Shown: positions 5,809 through 43,262 of the stretch, one piece after another
Layout of the letters: every line of letters starts with the position of its first letter
Position numbering within the stretch: position 1 is the first letter of the stretch
NCBI RefSeq assembly: GCF_006352065.1
Contig: NZ_CP040915.1
Coordinates: 1,674,001-1,738,000 of the forward strand
Direction of reading: 5' to 3'
DNA from: Georgenia yuyongxinii
GTDB taxonomy: Bacteria; Actinomycetota; Actinomycetes; Actinomycetales; Actinomycetaceae
Length of the DNA stretch: 64,000 nucleotides
Program-made: the position numbers and the translations under genes
Notes under the pieces: generated by a model
Database searches by the model: none
What the model was told of the DNA's origin: nothing
What the model saw: only the letters and a program-made list of their open reading frames with translations

Positions 5809-6615
5809 GTGGCGGCCGGCACCGACCCCGACGCCCCCACGGAGGGGCTGCAGTCGCTCGGCCGGGGCCTCGCCGTCATCCGGGCGCTGGCGGCAGCCGG
5901 TGAGCCGCTCACCCTCGCGCAGGTCGCCCAGGCCACCTCGCTCAACCGGGCGGTGGCCCGCCGGGTGCTGCTCACCCTGGTCGAGGTCGGCTACGTGCTC
6001 GCCCGCGGTCGGGAGTTCAGCCTGCGGCCCCGGGTGCTGGAGCTGGGGGAGGCCTACCGCACCGCGCTGCGCCTGCCCGAGCTCGCGCTGGGTCCGATGC
6101 GCGGGCTGGTGGAGACGACCGGGCAGTCGTGCTCGATGGCGGTGCTGGACGGCGCCGACATCGTCTACGTCCAGCGCGTGCCGGGCCGGCGCATCATCGA
6201 CGCCGTCATCCACGTCGGCACCCGCCTGCCGGCCGCCGCCACCGCCATGGGACGCGTGCTCCTGGCGGCACTCGACGACGCCGAGCTCGACGCGGTGCTC
6301 GACCGGGACACGCTCGAGGGTCCGACGAGCCCGGCCATGCCCGGACGCACCGTCGAACGCGCCGCGCTGCGGGCGGCGGTCGAGGAGGTGCGCCGGAAGG
6401 GCTACTGCCGCGTCGACCAGGAGTTCGAGCGGGGCCTGACCACGCTCGCGGCGCCGGTCCGGGACGTGACCGGCGCCGTCGTCGCGGCGGTCAACCTGCC
6501 GCTGAGCACCTACACGCTGCCGGACGGGCAGGTGCCGGAGGAGCTCGTCGACGCCATTCGCGCCACGGCGGCGCAGGTCACCGAGCTGGCGGTGCGCGCC
6601 CAAGTCTCCAGGTAG
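5809..6615 (+). CDS. pcaR: IclR-family regulator of the pca genes (PcaR-like)
   Basis: A 268-residue IclR regulator starting with GTG immediately after the pcaDC stop, with no gap, so it is translationally coupled to the catabolic genes. The winged helix is at about residues 12-75 (LGRGLAVIRAL, LTLAQVAQATSLNRAVARRVL), the effector domain at 85-260 (TAMGRVLLA, CRVDQEFERGLTTLAAPV). It resembles the PcaR/PcaU branch and by position is the better candidate for PcaR. It would bind the GTTCG-N5-CGCAC sites before pcaB and pcaI. Its stop codon lies in the first copy of an 18-bp tandem array. Confidence 0.88.
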   Translation: MAAGTDPDAPTEGLQSLGRGLAVIRALAAAGEPLTLAQVAQATSLNRAVARRVLLTLVEVGYVLARGREFSLRPRVLELGEAYRTALRLPELALGPMRGLVETTGQSCSMAVLDGADIVYVQRVPGRRIIDAVIHVGTRLPAAATAMGRVLLAALDDAELDAVLDRDTLEGPTSPAMPGRTVERAALRAAVEEVRRKGYCRVDQEFERGLTTLAAPVRDVTGAVVAAVNLPLSTYTLPDGQVPEELVDAIRATAAQVTELAVRAQVSR

Positions 6616-6694
6616 CGCGAGACCTGCGAGTAGCGCGAGACCGGCGAGTAGCGCGAGACCGGCGAGTAGCGCGAGACCTGCGAGTAGCGCGAGA
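6612..6694. repeat. Tandem array, 18-bp unit, about 4.6 copies
   Basis: Unit GTAGCGCGAGACCKGCGA repeats at 6612, 6630, 6648 and 6666, with a partial copy from 6684 that runs straight into the palindromic element at 6689. Copies differ only at one T/G position. The TAG stop of the upstream regulator lies in the first unit. There are no unique spacers, so it is not a CRISPR array. Confidence 0.9.
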
Positions 6695-6744
6695 TGTCAT
6701 CTTCTCCGTGAGATGTACGTCTCACGGAGAAGATGACATCTCGC
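6689..6744. repeat. 19-bp-unit dispersed repeat, inverted-pair form (copy 1)
   Basis: Two 25-bp arms (6689-6713 and 6720-6744) are exact reverse complements around a 6-nt centre. Each arm contains the unit GAGATGTCATCTTCTCCGT. The element separates the convergent pcaR and pcaF genes, and could act as a two-way transcription stop, although no T-tract follows. Confidence 0.9.
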
Positions 6745-16500: not shown

Positions 16501-16596
16501 GCGAGATGTCATCTTCTCCGCGAGTCATCTCCTCGGTGAGACGTGGTCTTCTCCGCGGGACGTCAACCAGATCTCGCGGAGACGGTGACATCTCGC
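16501..16596. repeat. 19-bp-unit dispersed repeat, long degenerate form (copy 2)
   Basis: Starts with GAGATGTCATCTTCTCCGC, continues with two altered direct units (about 16521 and 16537), and ends with an inverted unit (about 16573-16596). The outer 24-bp arms pair with two mismatches. It lies 19 bp after the uvrA stop. Confidence 0.85.
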
Positions 16597-16675: not shown

Positions 16676-17179
16676 ATGGGAGCGCTCCAGACGTACAACG
16701 TCACCGTCGACTGGACCGGCGCCGACGAGCGCGGGACCGCGAGCTATACGAGCTACTCCCGCGACCACGAGGTGCGGGTGGAGGGCAAACCCACGCTGCT
16801 GGCGACCTCCGACCTCAAGGTCCGCACCGACGTGAGCCGATACCGCGCCGAGGAGCTCTTTGTCGGCGCCATCTCCCAGGCCCAGATGCTCTGGTTCCTG
16901 CGCACGGCCGCCAAGCACGACGTCGTGGTGCTCGGGTACGCGGACAAGGCCACCGGTACCCAACGCGTCGAGGGCGCCGGCTCCGGCCCCTTCGTGGAGG
17001 TCGTGCTCCGCCCGCGCGTGACCTACGCCGATCCGGGCGTCAGCGCCGAGCTCGCCGCCCGCCTGCATCACGAGGCCCGGGAGCACAACCACATCGCCCG
17101 GTCGGTCCACTTTCCGGTGCGGGTCGAGCCCGCTGTGGTGGCGCCCCAGGCTGAGCGAGCCGCGGTCCCCGCCGAGTAG
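16676..17179 (+). CDS. OsmC-family protein lacking the peroxidatic cysteines
   Basis: A 167-residue protein with the OsmC/Ohr fold pattern: EELFVGAISQAQMLWFL (about residues 57-73) and EHNHIARSVHFPV (about 139-151). In true peroxide reductases these two stretches carry the catalytic cysteines (as in ACHMLxFL and EHCFIANSV). Here they read Gln and Asn, and the whole protein has no cysteine. It cannot be a thiol peroxidase of the usual kind and may bind a ligand instead. Two in-frame ATG codons (16667 and 16676) exist; the second fits a leaderless start. Its last codons lie in a 36-bp tandem array. Confidence 0.85.
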   Translation: MGALQTYNVTVDWTGADERGTASYTSYSRDHEVRVEGKPTLLATSDLKVRTDVSRYRAEELFVGAISQAQMLWFLRTAAKHDVVVLGYADKATGTQRVEGAGSGPFVEVVLRPRVTYADPGVSAELAARLHHEAREHNHIARSVHFPVRVEPAVVAPQAERAAVPAE

Positions 17180-17268
17180 CCCTGCGTCGAGCGCGCCGCG
17201 GTCCCCGCCGAGTAGACCTGCGTCGAGCGCGCCGCGGTCCCCGCCGAGTAGACCTGCGTCGAGCGCGC
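17161..17268. repeat. Tandem array, 36-bp unit, 3 copies
   Basis: Copies start at 17161, 17197 and 17233 and differ at one base (C/A after GAGTAG). The unit contains GCCGAGTAGACCTGCGTCGA. The stop codon of the OsmC-like gene is in copy 1, so the array begins inside its coding end. Like the array at 6612, it starts at a TAG stop codon. Confidence 0.92.
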
Positions 17269-26407: not shown

Positions 26408-26426
26408 CCCACACGCGTACGGCCGC

Positions 26427-26463
26427 CGAGATGTCATCTTCTCCGTGAGATGTCATCTCCTGC
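26427..26463. repeat. 19-bp-unit dispersed repeat, direct tandem form (copy 3)
   Basis: Two direct units: GAGATGTCATCTTCTCCGT (26428-26446) and GAGATGTCATCTCCTGC (26447-26463). It lies 20 bp after the tpiA stop. Confidence 0.9.
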
Positions 26464-26490
26464 TAGAGCGGTCACGACGACGACGGGCCA

Positions 26491-26977: not shown

Positions 26978-27325
26978 GTGGCTGGTGGAAGTGCGATCCG
27001 CGGCTCGCGTGTCGGCGCAGGACCGATGGGAGAGGCCGAGCGGGGCGAGGCAGCCCCTCGGGTCTGGGTGTCCTACTGGTGCTCACAGGGCCACGAGGTG
27101 CGGCCGAGCTTCGCCAAGGAGCCCGACATCGTCATCCCGGCGACATGGGACTGCCCGCGGTGCGGCCTGCCCGCTGGGCAGGACAAGGAGAACCCTCCGA
27201 TGCCGCAGAAGACGGAGCCGTACAAGACCCACCTGGCTTACGTGAAGGAGCGACGCTCCGACGAGGACGGCGCCGCACTTCTCGACGAGGCCCTGGCCGC
27301 CCTGCGCGAGCGTCGCGGGGGCTGA
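26978..27325 (+). CDS. rbpA: RNA polymerase-binding protein RbpA
   Basis: A 115-residue actinobacteria-specific activator that binds the principal sigma factor and the promoter DNA. The N-terminal tail (AIRGSRVGAG), the zinc-type RbpA core with YWCSQGHEV (about residues 36-44) and WDCPRCGLPAG (about 61-71), a basic linker and the C-terminal sigma-interaction helix (about 92-112) are all present. The GTG at 26978 gives the usual N-terminus. A bidirectional terminator follows. Confidence 0.95.
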   Translation: MAGGSAIRGSRVGAGPMGEAERGEAAPRVWVSYWCSQGHEVRPSFAKEPDIVIPATWDCPRCGLPAGQDKENPPMPQKTEPYKTHLAYVKERRSDEDGAALLDEALAALRERRGG

Positions 27326-27395
27326 TCGGCGGCGGGAGCCGACCGTGGGAGAGTGCGGGGCGCTCCGCGGCACACACAGGCGGATAGAAAACGAG

Positions 27396-27427
27396 AAGGC
27401 CGGGCGGCGATGACGCTGCCCGGCCTT
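27396..27427. terminator. Bidirectional intrinsic terminator between rbpA and opcA
   Basis: AAGGCCGGGC (27396-27405) pairs with GCCCGGCCTT (27418-27427), followed by TTCG. On the left, GAAAACGAG gives a T-run when read on the minus strand. It serves the convergent rbpA (plus) and opcA (minus). Confidence 0.85.
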
Positions 27428-27496
27428 TCGCGTGCCCTGCATGTTGTAGGCCCGGCCTCTGTGTGCCCGCCCCTTGTCCGGGGCCGGGCCGTCGAG

Positions 27497-28423
27497 TCAG
27501 TCCATCTCCACCAGCCGCAGCCCCTCGGTGAGCACCTCGCCGTAGGTGATGTCCGGGTCGAGCCGGCGCAGCTCCTCCATGAGGGAGTTCTCGAGCTCAC
27601 GCTGGGGCAGGTTCACCGGCTGGTCGGGTCGGCCGGGCCGGGAGAGCAGCGCCACGGTGGACCCCTGTGCCCGGGTCAGACTGATCGGTCCCGACTCCCG
27701 CTCGAGGATGACGCCGCTGATCGCGTCGTGCCCGTCCGCGACCATGGTGACCGGCACCTGCAGCCGCAGCGCCAGCCAGCCGGCCAGCAGCGCGATCGAC
27801 GGGTGCGAGGACGAGCCGGAGACCGTGACCGCGGTGACGGGCTCGTACGGTGGCTCGTCTAGCGAGGCGGCCAGGACCGTGCGCCACATCGTCAGGCCGG
27901 CCCAGGCCAGGTCGGTGTCTCCGGGGGAGTAGTTCTCCCGGAGCGTGGCCAGGACCGCGCCGGGGTCGGCGCAGTGGATGCTGTTGGTGATCCGGCGGTG
28001 CGCCATCTGACCGATCGGGTCCTTCGACGGCGCCTCCGGCGGGGTGTTGGCCCACCAGGTCACGATCGGGGCGTCGGGCAGCAGCAGCGGCATGATCAGC
28101 GTGTCGGGCCGGGAGCCGGCACCGCCGTACGGGCGCAGGACCACCACCTCGGACGCGCCGGCGTGCGCACCGACGCGGATCTGCGCGTTGAGCCCGGCCC
28201 GGCCGCCGCCGTCGGCGTCGGGCAGCACCGCCAGCACGCGGGCCGGGTGCTCGTGCGAAGCCACGTTGGAGACGCGGATGGCCTGCTCCGCGGAGCGCTC
28301 GTCGTCGGCGAGGATCACCAGGGTGAGCACCCGCCCGAGGGCGACGGCGCCGCCCTCCTCGCGCAGCGAGACAAGCCGGCTGCCCACGGCAGCTGACGTG
28401 GTGTCGTTCAGCGTGACGATCAT
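27497..28423 (-). CDS. opcA: Glucose-6-phosphate dehydrogenase assembly protein OpcA
   Basis: A 308-residue partner of Zwf found in cyanobacteria and actinobacteria, needed for full dehydrogenase activity. Recognised by VLTLVILADD, LRPYGGAGSRPDTLIMPLLLPD, VTWWANTPP (about residues 124-132) and the C-terminal TYGEVLTEGL. The ATG at 28423 follows AAGGA. It lies last in the minus-strand operon. The gene for 6-phosphogluconolactonase, which usually comes next, is missing: rbpA comes instead. A 56-bp palindrome lies between zwf and opcA. Confidence 0.92.
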   Translation of the reverse strand: MIVTLNDTTSAAVGSRLVSLREEGGAVALGRVLTLVILADDERSAEQAIRVSNVASHEHPARVLAVLPDADGGGRAGLNAQIRVGAHAGASEVVVLRPYGGAGSRPDTLIMPLLLPDAPIVTWWANTPPEAPSKDPIGQMAHRRITNSIHCADPGAVLATLRENYSPGDTDLAWAGLTMWRTVLAASLDEPPYEPVTAVTVSGSSSHPSIALLAGWLALRLQVPVTMVADGHDAISGVILERESGPISLTRAQGSTVALLSRPGRPDQPVNLPQRELENSLMEELRRLDPDITYGEVLTEGLRLVEMD

Positions 28424-28467
28424 CGGTTTCCTTCGGACGGACGGCCGGGGGAGTGGCTCACAGTGCG

Positions 28468-28523
28468 GCGAGATGTCATCTTCTCCGTGAGATGTACATC
28501 TCACGGAGAAGATGACATCTCGC
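28468..28523. repeat. 19-bp-unit dispersed repeat, perfect 56-bp palindrome (copy 4)
   Basis: The full 56 bp equals its own reverse complement; each half begins with GCGAGATGTCATCTTCTCCG and the centre is GAGATGTACATCTC. It sits inside an operon, 16 bp after the zwf stop and 44 bp before opcA, where the mRNA could form a stem of up to about 26 bp. Confidence 0.97.
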
Positions 28524-28539
28524 GGGCGAAGGGGTGGGG

Positions 28540-30078
28540 TCAGGGACGGCGCCAGGCGCGCCCATCGAGGGCGAGCATGTCGTGCGAGCCGGGCGGCCCC
28601 CACGAGCCGGGCATGTATGTCTCCGGCTGCCCGCTGCGCGCCCAGGCCTCCATGACCGGGTCGAGGATCTGCCAGGACAGCTCGACCTCCTTCTGGCGCG
28701 GGAACAGCGGCGGGTCACCGAGGAGCACGTCGAGGATGAGCCGCTCGTACGCCTCGGGAGAGTTCTCCGTGAACGCGTGGCCGTAACCGAAGTCCATCGT
28801 GACGTCGCGGACCTCCATCGCGGTGCCCGGCACCTTCGCACCGAACCGGATGGTCACGCCCTCGTCCGGCTGCACCCGGATCACCAGGGCGTTCTGCCCG
28901 AGCTCCTGGGTGTCGGTGAGGTCGAACGGCAGGTGCGGGGCCCGCTTGAAGACGACGGCGATCTCGGTCACCCGGCGGCCCAGACGCTTGCCGGCGCGCA
29001 GGTAGAACGGCACACCCGCCCAGCGGCGGGTGTCCACGTCCAGGCGCATCGCGGCGTACGTCTCGGTGTTGGAGTCGGCCGGGATGCCGTCCTCCCCGAG
29101 GTAGCCGCGCACCTGCACCCCGCCCTGCCACCCGGCGGCGTACTGCCCGCGGGCGGTGTGCAGCGAGAGGTCCTCGGGCAGGGTGACGGCGGCGAGGATC
29201 TTCTCCTTCTCCGCACGCAGCGCGTCGGAGTCGAAGGAGACGGGCTCCTCCATCGCGGTGAGTGCGAGGAGCTGGAGCAGGTGGTTCTGGATGACGTCCC
29301 GCGCCGCGCCGATACCGTCGTAGTAGCCGGCCCGGGTGCCGATGCCGATGTCCTCGGCCATCGTGATCTGCACGTGGTCCACGTAGTGCGCGTTCCACAC
29401 GGGCTCGAAGAACTGGTTGGCGAACCGCAGCGCCAGGATGTTCTGGACGGTCTCCTTGCCCAGGTAGTGGTCGATGCGGAACACCGAGTCGGGCGGGAAG
29501 ACCTCCGAGACCACCCGGTCCAGCTCCTGCGCCGAGGCGAGGTCGTGGCCGAACGGCTTCTCGATGACCACCCGCCGCCAGCCCTCCGCGCGACGTCCGG
29601 ACAGGCCGGACCGGGCGAGCTGGCGCAGCACCACGGGGAAGGCGTCCGGCGGCACGGAGAGGTAGAACGCGTGGTTGCCGCCGGTGCCGCGCTGCTCGTC
29701 GAGCGTCTGGACCGTCTCGGCGAGCCGGTCGAAGGCGTCGTCGTCGCCGAACTCGCCCTGGACGAACCGGAACCCGGAGACCAGCTGGTCCCAGGTCCGC
29801 TCGTTGAACGGCGTGCGAGCGTGCTCCCGGACGGCGTCGTGCACGACCTCCGCGAACTCCGCGGTGCTCCACTTCCGCCGGCCGAACCCGGTCAGCGCGA
29901 ACGAGGGCGGCAGCAGGCCGCGGTTGGCCAGGTCGTAGATGGCGGGCATGAGCTTGCGCTTGGCCAGGTCGCCGGTGATCCCGAAGATCACCAGTCCCGC
30001 GGGCCCGGCGATGCGCGGCAGGCGCCGGTCCCGCCGGTCCCGCAGGGGGTTCGCCGCCGTGGTGGGCGCACTGCTCAT
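28540..30078 (-). CDS. zwf: Glucose-6-phosphate 1-dehydrogenase
   Basis: First enzyme of the oxidative pentose phosphate pathway (NADP-linked), 512 residues. The nucleotide-binding motif GITGDLAKRKLMPA (about residues 33-46), the active-site block RIDHYLGKETVQN (about 199-211) and EKPFGHDL (about 172-179) are intact. The ATG at 30078 overlaps the pgi stop (ATGA). It belongs to tkt-tal-pgi-zwf-opcA. Confidence 0.98.
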   Translation of the reverse strand: MSSAPTTAANPLRDRRDRRLPRIAGPAGLVIFGITGDLAKRKLMPAIYDLANRGLLPPSFALTGFGRRKWSTAEFAEVVHDAVREHARTPFNERTWDQLVSGFRFVQGEFGDDDAFDRLAETVQTLDEQRGTGGNHAFYLSVPPDAFPVVLRQLARSGLSGRRAEGWRRVVIEKPFGHDLASAQELDRVVSEVFPPDSVFRIDHYLGKETVQNILALRFANQFFEPVWNAHYVDHVQITMAEDIGIGTRAGYYDGIGAARDVIQNHLLQLLALTAMEEPVSFDSDALRAEKEKILAAVTLPEDLSLHTARGQYAAGWQGGVQVRGYLGEDGIPADSNTETYAAMRLDVDTRRWAGVPFYLRAGKRLGRRVTEIAVVFKRAPHLPFDLTDTQELGQNALVIRVQPDEGVTIRFGAKVPGTAMEVRDVTMDFGYGHAFTENSPEAYERLILDVLLGDPPLFPRQKEVELSWQILDPVMEAWARSGQPETYMPGSWGPPGSHDMLALDGRAWRRP

Positions 30079-37477: not shown

Positions 37478-37508
37478 GCGAGATGTCATCTTCTCCGCGA
37501 CATGTCAC
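37478..37508. repeat. 19-bp-unit dispersed repeat, one and a half units (copy 5)
   Basis: GAGATGTCATCTTCTCCGC (37479-37497) is followed by a partial second unit GACATGTCAC. It lies between xerD and the convergent gene at 37505, whose stop codon lies in the element's last bases. Confidence 0.88.
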
Positions 37509-38464
37509 GGCAAGTCGTGCATGCCCCGCCATCGGCGGCGGGTCGGCACCACCGAGAGCCCGAGCGCTTCGATCACCGTGGCCTCCACCACCGGCCGCCG
37601 GCCCAGCACGTCCCCGGCGTGGAACGCGAACGCCGTCCAGCCCCAGCGGTTCTCGATGTCCTCGCGGCGACGGACGTCGTGCCGCCCCTGCTCGACAGTG
37701 GTCCGATGGAACCGCTCCCCGTCGTACTCCAGGCCCACCTGTTTCTCGTGATAGCCCATGTCGAGGCGGTAGATCTCACGCCCCAACCCGTCCCGGAGGC
37801 TGATCTGCAGGTCCGGGATGGGCAGGCCCGCCTCATGCAGACGCAGCCGCGTCCAGGACTCACCGGGCAGCTCGGCGCGGGGGTCGGCCATCGCGAGGAC
37901 GGCGCGCGCCCGGGCGATCCAGCGCCGTCCCCGCAGCTCTCGGATCCGCTCGGTAATCTCATCGAGAGTGATGAGGCCGGCGTGGCTGAACATGTCCAGG
38001 GCCGCCAAACCCATGTACCTCTCGCTGTGCCTGGCCAGGTCCAGTGCGGTGCGAGCGGGTGACGTGATCGGGACGCCGTCGACCTCGACGATGTCGCCCG
38101 GGCCCAGGTCGGTGAGGTAGCCGCGGATCTCCGGCCGGCGGAGGGGGTTCAGGAAGATCTCACGGTCGCTCAAACACTCCAGCATTGGTGGATCCCGGAA
38201 GCGGTCAGGCGGTCGGACATCCACGCCGTGCAGCCAGGCCGCGGTCTCGCGGCCGAGCGTGGCGCCGTCGGGCAGGAGCATCCCGATTGCGCGGGCACGC
38301 GCCTCGGGGTCTTCGGCGGTGTCGACGGGCAGGTAGATGCCCCGGAACGGCCGGACCAGCGGGCCGTCGCGCACCAGGTCCGTGAGCTGGTTCGGCCCGA
38401 CCCCGGCGGCGCGGGCGGAGTCGAGGGTGATCGGCCGGTCGGTGGGCAGGTCTGTCGTTGTCAT
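37505..38464 (-). CDS. AbiEi-like winged-helix / DUF559-type endonuclease-fold protein
   Basis: 319 residues. The N-terminal part resembles the AbiEi antitoxin-type winged helix seen in many actinobacterial proteins (PITLDSARAAGV...LTDLVRDGPLVRPFRGIYLP, about residues 15-55). The middle part holds ITSPARTALDLAR. The C-terminal part (about 210-310) resembles DUF559, a very-short-patch-repair-like nuclease fold: VGLEYDGERFH (about 255-265) with Asp/Glu, then RREDIENRWGW. No AbiEii toxin gene is next to it. Such solitary proteins are frequent in actinobacteria and have no proven role. Convergent with xerD. Confidence 0.7.
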   Translation of the reverse strand: MTTTDLPTDRPITLDSARAAGVGPNQLTDLVRDGPLVRPFRGIYLPVDTAEDPEARARAIGMLLPDGATLGRETAAWLHGVDVRPPDRFRDPPMLECLSDREIFLNPLRRPEIRGYLTDLGPGDIVEVDGVPITSPARTALDLARHSERYMGLAALDMFSHAGLITLDEITERIRELRGRRWIARARAVLAMADPRAELPGESWTRLRLHEAGLPIPDLQISLRDGLGREIYRLDMGYHEKQVGLEYDGERFHRTTVEQGRHDVRRREDIENRWGWTAFAFHAGDVLGRRPVVEATVIEALGLSVVPTRRRWRGMHDLP

Positions 38465-38598
38465 GCCCGCAGGCTGGCAGGGAGCCGACCCGCGGCACGA
38501 GGAGCTACCGCGAACGCTGTGGACAAGGTGGCGCTCGACGGCGGTCTGGGTGGGTTGAGCGACGACGGGACGTGGCCGGACGGGAGCTGTGACCTCTG

Positions 38599-38619
38599 GC
38601 GGAGAAGATGACATCTCGC
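38599..38619. repeat. 19-bp-unit dispersed repeat, single inverted unit (copy 6)
   Basis: GCGGAGAAGATGACATCTCGC is one unit read on the minus strand, in the gap between the divergent genes at 38464 and 38726. Nothing else of note is seen in this 261-bp gap apart from the parA promoter. Confidence 0.85.
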
Positions 38620-41884: not shown

Positions 41885-41939
41885 GCGAGATGTCATCTTC
41901 TCCGTGAGATGTCATCTCCTCGGTCAGATGTCCTCGCTC
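41885..41939. repeat. 19-bp-unit dispersed repeat, three direct units (copy 7)
   Basis: GAGATGTCATCTTCTCCGT (41887-41905), GAGATGTCATCTCCTCGGT (41906-41924) and CAGATGTCCTCGCTC (41925-41939) show the 19-bp period most clearly. It lies between rluB and tyrA. Confidence 0.92.
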
Positions 41940-43210: not shown

Positions 43211-43262
43211 AGATGACATGTCGCCGAGGAGATGACATCTCGCGGAGAAGATGACATCTCGG
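43211..43262. repeat. 19-bp-unit dispersed repeat, three units in minus orientation (copy 8)
   Basis: Read on the minus strand: GAGATGTCATCTTCTCCGC, GAGATGTCATCTCCTCGGC, then GACATGTCATCTTT. It has the same unit order as copy 7 but inverted relative to it; it lies between tyrA and cmk, ending 27 bp before the cmk start. Confidence 0.92.

Follow-up and report, generated by a model that had tools for sequence, protein, structure and literature searches.

The window analyzed here, a 64,000-nt stretch of the Georgenia yuyongxinii genome, encodes on its minus strand glucose-6-phosphate dehydrogenase (zwf, 28540..30078; TIGR00871, 640.7 bits) and the G6PDH assembly protein (opcA, 27497..28423; TIGR00534, E 1.9e-69, 234.3 bits, a score below the curated cut-off of 256.25 for this model). 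The two genes close a tightly packed co-directional run, tkt-tal-pgi-zwf-opcA, which presumably represents a single operon. A perfect palindrome of 56 bp (28468..28523) is located between them, 16 nt past the zwf stop codon and 44 nt ahead of the opcA ATG. It is identical to its own reverse complement in 56/56 bases, and the symmetry ends exactly at its borders. Chance alone would produce about 2e-10 palindromes of this kind in 64 kb of this base composition; the runner-up among the perfect palindromes of the window is 24 bp long. The predicted RNA fold consists of a 26-bp stem with a 4-nt loop (-48.7 kcal/mol, z-score -13.9). Thus, the original prediction of a perfect 56-bp palindrome between two co-directional genes, forming a stem of over 25 bp, was correct in its description of the site.

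The palindrome is an inverted doublet of a repeated unit. Its core 16-mer, GAGATGTCATCTTCTC, is present on the plus strand in the opcA-side arm (28470..28485) and on the minus strand, in the sense of zwf, in the zwf-side arm (28506..28521). The spacer from the zwf stop codon to the element (28524..28539, minus strand) comprises 16 nt, is C-rich and G-poor, and reads CCCCACCCCTTCGCCC on the zwf strand; such a C-rich 5' side is common across the repeat family. At the Rfam gathering threshold, a tRNA alone was detected in the whole window and the element matched nothing; of the 11 matches below the threshold at the element, 10 were to microRNA hairpin models. A terminator scan of positions 27300-28800 revealed 0 terminator-like sites, and a U-run was not found. 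The core 16-mer occurs in 10 exact copies in the window and in 103 (48 on the plus and 55 on the minus strand) in the 4.17-Mb genome, where approximately 0.0001 are expected, confirming the claim that the element is a dispersed repeat.

The window's own genome (G000) was compared with the genomes of eight Georgenia congeners (G001–G008), nine genomes in all, each species being represented by a single one. The exact 16-mer was present in only one congener, G003, in 6 copies. In two sets of relatives, both including the window's own genome, it was matched in 2 of 59 and 1 of 396 genomes. According to looser pattern searches, the family unit is 19 nt long, roughly YGAGNNGTCANNTYCTCC, and is arranged singly, in tandem, or in inward-facing inverted arrays. 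The pattern GAGNNGTCANNTYCTCS was counted 167 times in G000, 142 in G003, 34 in G008, 8 in G001, 3 in G004, and once in G002, with 0 copies in G005, G006, and G007; its reversed control gave 0 matches in all nine genomes. Three of the nine genomes (G000, G003, and G008) are therefore repeat-rich, the others having 0–8 copies. The prevailing dialects, among the matches listed, were GAGATGTCATCTTCTCC in G000, GAG(A/T)(C/G)GTCAASTYCTCC in G003, and GAGCGGTCAAGTCCTCG in G008. By OpcA identity to G000, the closest genomes are G008, G004, and G002 (79–81%), and the repeat-rich G003 has 70%; thus, the abundance of the repeat does not simply track kinship. G. thermotolerans NBRC 104148 has a contig that matches G002 loci at 100% identity across 2.5 kb.

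A 12-bp hairpin is predicted for a pair of tandem units; its stability does not stand out against shuffles (z -1.8 and -1.4 for two stretches). Neither a GTAG tag nor a conserved CGTC tag was found in the position counts of 96 G000 arms, chosen via the exact 16-mer, or in the listed variants of the other genomes; the CGTC position varies, with TGTC in G000 and GGTC common in G008. A wide distribution of the family was considered and rejected: one pattern variant gave only 11 single hits in GTDB contigs, 1 of them in Georgenia, in a collection that may omit this and very near genomes. A phage or plasmid origin was likewise rejected, as window positions 28448-28543 had no match and the 19-mer was found in no contig of IMG/VR, a collection that may also omit very near genomes. 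Within the searches made, the family appears to be restricted to Georgenia. We failed to find a description of Georgenia repeats in the literature searched.

Inverted arrays of the family follow one plan. In gaps containing both orientations, the order was plus followed by minus, i.e., with the arms facing inward, in 55 of 55 cases (29 in G000, 13 in G003, and 13 in G008), and the same count with the looser unit set gave 58 of 58. Neighbors in the order minus–plus do occur across genes; the rule is valid inside single gaps. In G000, both 16-mers are exact in 16 pairs, of which 8 have a 24-nt center (60-bp form) and 3 a 20-nt center (56-bp form); the center of the less common 56-bp form, CGTGAGATGTACATCTCACG, is without the CATG present in the 60-bp form. 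The copy at 28468 is identical to that at genome position 1851657, which has unrelated flanks. A second 56-bp form in the window (6689..6744) differs from it at 1 position and has unlike flanks, and a degenerate 56-bp copy is present at genome position 1899558. Since an unrelated locus carries the 56-bp form as well, the whole palindrome was seemingly copied as a unit.

In G000, two arms match more closely if they come from one locus than if they come from different loci (25.45 vs. 24.24 of 30; 0/5000 permutations). This was also the case in G008 and failed in G003; it could result from selection acting on the stem as well as from local copying. In the 60 single-orientation gaps of G000, an inward mate was detected in 6 at the loosest threshold, which was reached by 0 of 256 control gaps. 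Thus, most G000 singlets do not resemble decayed doublets.

Placement relative to genes was analyzed; genes were called by a codon-usage script, and the counts depend on these calls. The exact 16-mer served to select the G000 loci (61 initial sequences containing 96 of its 103 copies, plus two added loci), and looser patterns those of G003 and G008. Unit counts leave out isolated one-mismatch hits, random sequence giving 1–11 one-mismatch and 0–2 exact hits per 400 kb; the conclusions were the same with the looser set. The 86 element-bearing gaps of G000 comprised 34 convergent, 50 co-directional, and 2 divergent ones, and the 358 gaps of 20 evenly spaced 20-kb stretches comprised 56, 242, and 60, respectively. 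Convergent gaps were thus enriched (Fisher P 4e-6) and divergent ones depleted (Fisher P 2e-4). Within these stretches, an exact-pattern unit was present in 7 of 358 gaps (3 convergent and 4 co-directional); 2 units in divergent gaps and 2 within genes were isolated one-mismatch hits. Divergent element gaps numbered 5 of 35 in G003 and 1 of 20 in G008. Units inside called genes at the selected loci were few: 7 of 158 in G000, 7 of 186 in G003, and 6 of 58 in G008. Some convergent gaps are nearly filled by the element, as at genome positions 3044040 (14 + 60 + 11) and 2558775.

In co-directional gaps, the block was nearer to the upstream stop than to the downstream start in 45 of 50 cases in G000 (P 4e-9), 9 of 12 in G003, and 9 of 10 in G008, and the median distance from the stop to the first sense unit was 24, 22, and 18 nt, respectively. 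The co-directional gaps of G000 held sense units only in 31 cases, antisense units only in 5, and both in 14 (sense bias P 1e-5). Of the 19 single-orientation convergent gaps of this genome, 15 had the array beside its own stop (P 0.02). The sense rule was not repeated in G003 (2 sense vs. 6 antisense; array beside its own stop in 5 of 9 convergent gaps); the G008 counts were too few (2 vs. 1; 1 of 3 convergent gaps). The stretch from the stop to the first sense unit had C and G fractions of 0.59 and 0.20 in G000, 0.63 and 0.18 in G003, and 0.48 and 0.28 in G008, compared with C 0.41–0.42 and G 0.34–0.37 at control 3' ends, barring two G008 convergent controls. This flank was mostly kept at arrays away from stops in G000 and G003 and was weaker in G008, as well as at 8 G000 arrays at most 60 nt from a start (C 0.39, G 0.31); both flank counts are based on the looser unit set. 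The C-rich flank therefore seems to travel with the element, or to be chosen by it, rather than to belong to the gene end. A Rho-type reading of the C-rich stretch was weakened by its presence at arrays away from stops in G000 and G003.

Other members of the family were found elsewhere in the window. They include a degenerate doublet with a spacer (16501..16596), tandem units 3' of tpiA (26426..26476, plus strand), tandem units 3' of an RluB-like pseudouridine-synthase gene (41885..41935, plus strand), and a single arm 3' of a XerD-like tyrosine-recombinase gene (37478..37509, plus strand). Another single arm is located in the divergent gap between the AbiEi-like and ParA-type ATPase genes (38588..38619, minus strand). 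Tandem units in the gap between prephenate dehydrogenase and cytidylate kinase (43212..43262, minus strand) are antisense to both genes and represent an exception to the rule.

Across the nine Georgenia genomes, 10 zwf-opcA gaps were read; OpcA loci L176 and L178 (no zwf hit in the piece) and second matches in G001 and G003 were left out of this set. Measured between the Zwf match and the first base of OpcA, the gap spans 20–128 nt. Judged by eye, the element was present in 1 of the 10 gaps, the syntenic copy of G000 itself, and none of the eight congeners showed it in the gap read, including the nearest relatives compared (OpcA 79–81%). A second zwf-opcA pair of G000 (2260749-2261663; Zwf 82% and OpcA 55% identical) has a 20-nt gap with no element. 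The original prediction had proposed that the hairpin could set the Zwf to OpcA ratio, through partial termination or RNase III-type cutting, and that relatives be compared. The hairpin and its co-directional gap are real; nothing specific supports the setting of a ratio, and since the element is missing from the gap in each congener, a conserved role of this kind is unsupported. Conservation thus does not identify the element as a control of Zwf and OpcA.

Certain element-bearing gaps are common to different species. Four, supported by reciprocal best hits to the left and right, are shared by G000 and G003, and a fifth (AbiEi/ParA) was judged from its flanks; two are shared by G000 and G008. 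Expected numbers were 1.2 for G003 and 0.65 for G008, with P values of 0.035 (four gaps), 0.008 (five), and 0.14 (two) that are rough and post hoc. In the shared gap at genome position 504463, the orientation of the array relative to the genes is reversed in G003. By eye, a separate GC-rich hairpin lies ahead of the element in the G000 gap at 504463 and in another G003 gap; thus, the element is not the sole terminator candidate there.

The AbiEi-like gene of the window (37505-38464) is flanked by inward arms in G000, and its orthologue in G003 also has arrays on its flanks and the same neighbor genes. Orthologues (68–70% identity) were found in four of the nine genomes, namely G000, G003, G008, and G002, a set that includes every repeat-rich genome. 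The matches in G008 and G002 were reported with one internal TGA, yet G002 has an open frame of 325 aa. The AbiEi-like protein was considered as a mobilizer of the repeat and rejected, the presence pattern (Fisher P 0.048) being too weak.

Genes of the Y1_Tnp/RAYT family (PF01797) were detected in 0 of the 9 Georgenia genomes; the same search was positive in 5 of 14 named control genomes. Inspection of the compared elements by eye revealed no obvious target-site duplication. Within the window, the arms were also considered as ends of insertion sequences and rejected: those at 37480/38602 enclose the AbiEi-like gene and those at 41887/43245 the prephenate dehydrogenase gene, neither being a transposase.

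REPs shield upstream mRNA against 3' exonucleases. Like the REP/BIME elements of E. coli and Pseudomonas, as described in the available text of PMC3733652, the Georgenia repeat is short, dispersed, palindromic, intergenic, and often dimeric, and adjoins 3' ends in convergent and co-directional gaps; the CGTC-tagged REP families described there are likewise without a dedicated transposase. It differs from REP/BIME in the tandem arrays of its 19-nt unit, in the lack of GTAG and of a conserved CGTC, in its occurrence in one genus only as seen here, and in that RAYT was not found in the nine genomes. The family is therefore REP-like in the broad sense of a high-copy, short, palindromic, extragenic repeat placed at 3' ends, and lacks the end tag of the GTAG/CGTC superfamilies. 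With REPINs, which in the available text of PMC3116915 are hairpin-forming inverted doublets around a repeated 16-mer, it shares this plan and the seeming copying as a unit. In contrast to REPINs, RAYT was not detected in the nine genomes, and the numerous single-orientation arrays mostly lack a decayed mate. The species-specific dialects resemble those of the Neisseriaceae DNA uptake sequences (PMC3630211). The Georgenia copies are far fewer, ranging in the three rich genomes from tens to about 200, with few in genes. Intrinsic terminators share with the element a strong RNA hairpin shortly past the stop codon and differ from it in having a U-run. Neisseriaceae DNA uptake sequences form inverted pairs at gene ends, a trait shared with the Georgenia repeat.

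Taken together, the palindrome is probably a recent copy of a scattered Georgenia inverted-repeat family and not a switch specific to zwf and opcA. Its identity as a full inverted-doublet copy of a RAYT-less REP/REPIN-like repeat is very likely; the chances that it affects the zwf-opcA mRNA are about even. The best explanation overall, which we favor with some reserve, is a REP/REPIN-like insertion having a weak 3'-barrier side effect. The element would have been copied into the gap, as a 56–60-bp unit and by some enzyme, after the lineage split from the eight congeners. The zwf-opcA message can fold into the 26-bp hairpin 16 nt past the zwf stop; by analogy with REP elements, this hairpin may act as a weak barrier at the 3' end, stabilizing the zwf side and somewhat attenuating or splitting off opcA. 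Such an effect is presumably modest and a consequence of the insertion rather than a conserved control. Speaking against this explanation are the negative Y1_Tnp/RAYT search in the nine genomes, the lack of a GTAG tag, the scarcity of inward mates (6 of 60 G000 gaps), and the failure to see a target-site duplication by eye. A purely recent burst of copying does not predict the four to five gaps shared by G000 and G003 against 1.2 expected.

A neutral insertion, i.e., a selfish repeat that survives in non-promoter intergenic DNA and does not measurably alter zwf or opcA, is unlikely. It would agree with the empty gap of each congener and with the same element behind many unrelated genes, and purifying selection alone could give the 2 divergent gaps of 86 in G000. 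However, the short distance to the stop (median 24 nt) and the sense bias of 31 vs. 5 in the single-orientation co-directional gaps of G000 exceed plain tolerance, and a perfect 26-bp stem in mRNA would seldom be without effect.

An oriented 3'-end module, in which the units and the preceding C-rich stretch are recognized by a lineage-specific factor co-evolving with the dialects, is quite unlikely; candidates for the factor are Rho-type termination, a protein that binds the RNA, and a roadblock bound to the DNA. The position of the units close to stops in three genomes of differing dialect, the C-rich and G-poor stop-to-unit stretch of G000 and G003 relative to control 3' ends, the G000 sense bias (31:5, P 1e-5), the orthologous gaps of which some carry elements in different dialects, and same-locus arm matching in G000 and G008 are consistent with it. 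The module is disfavored by the C-rich side following arrays with no adjacent stop in G000 and G003 and being weak in G008, by the lack of sense bias in G003 (2 vs. 6; G008 2 vs. 1), by G003 arrays in 5 divergent gaps, by the GC-rich hairpins seen by eye ahead of the element in some gaps, and by the failure of arm matching in G003. Its genus-wide form—a C-rich stretch plus 19-nt units as a 3'-end signal with a co-evolving factor, the dialect rewritten in each species and some sites retained—is harder still to credit. A bidirectional intrinsic terminator, suggested by the convergent gaps that the element nearly fills (3044040, 2558775), is improbable, because the U-run is absent, the scan of 27300-28800 gave 0 sites, and termination here would sever opcA from its likely promoter. 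An attenuator or RNase III site dedicated to setting the Zwf to OpcA ratio, along the lines of the original prediction, which the position in the gap and the 26-bp stem had suggested, is highly improbable with the element in just 1 of 10 zwf-opcA gaps and an identical 56-mer at another locus.

On the preferred reading of a REP/REPIN-like insertion, a supposed zwf-opcA regulator becomes one site of a repeat family in a high-GC actinobacterial genus. The family may serve as a test case for REP-like spread without RAYT transposases and bears on why elements settle just past stop codons and on how one unit turns into a different dialect in each species. In practical terms, a striking hairpin is not proof of gene-specific regulation.

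Several further repeats were observed. In the window, an 18-nt repeat, GTAGCGCGAGACCKGCGA, is present in four tandem copies (6612-6683) that begin at the end of an IclR-type gene and adjoin the 56-bp element at 6689. At two G000 loci (near genome positions 503033-503163 and 1878046-1878174), a near-identical insert of about 95 nt, itself holding the inverted repeat GGAAATGCTCGCG...CGCGAGCATTTCC, lies between the arms. Arrays at two G003 loci (L137 and L141) enclose a near-identical second hairpin, CCTGGACC...GGTCCAGG, between their arms. An unrelated perfect 40-bp palindrome, CGGGCCGACCGAGGGTGGCC/GGCCACCCTCGGTCGGCCCG, was found at genome position 3978235 (L197). Additionally, a called gene with no Pfam match carries at its 3' end a 36-nt tandem repeat in three copies (window 17153-17268).
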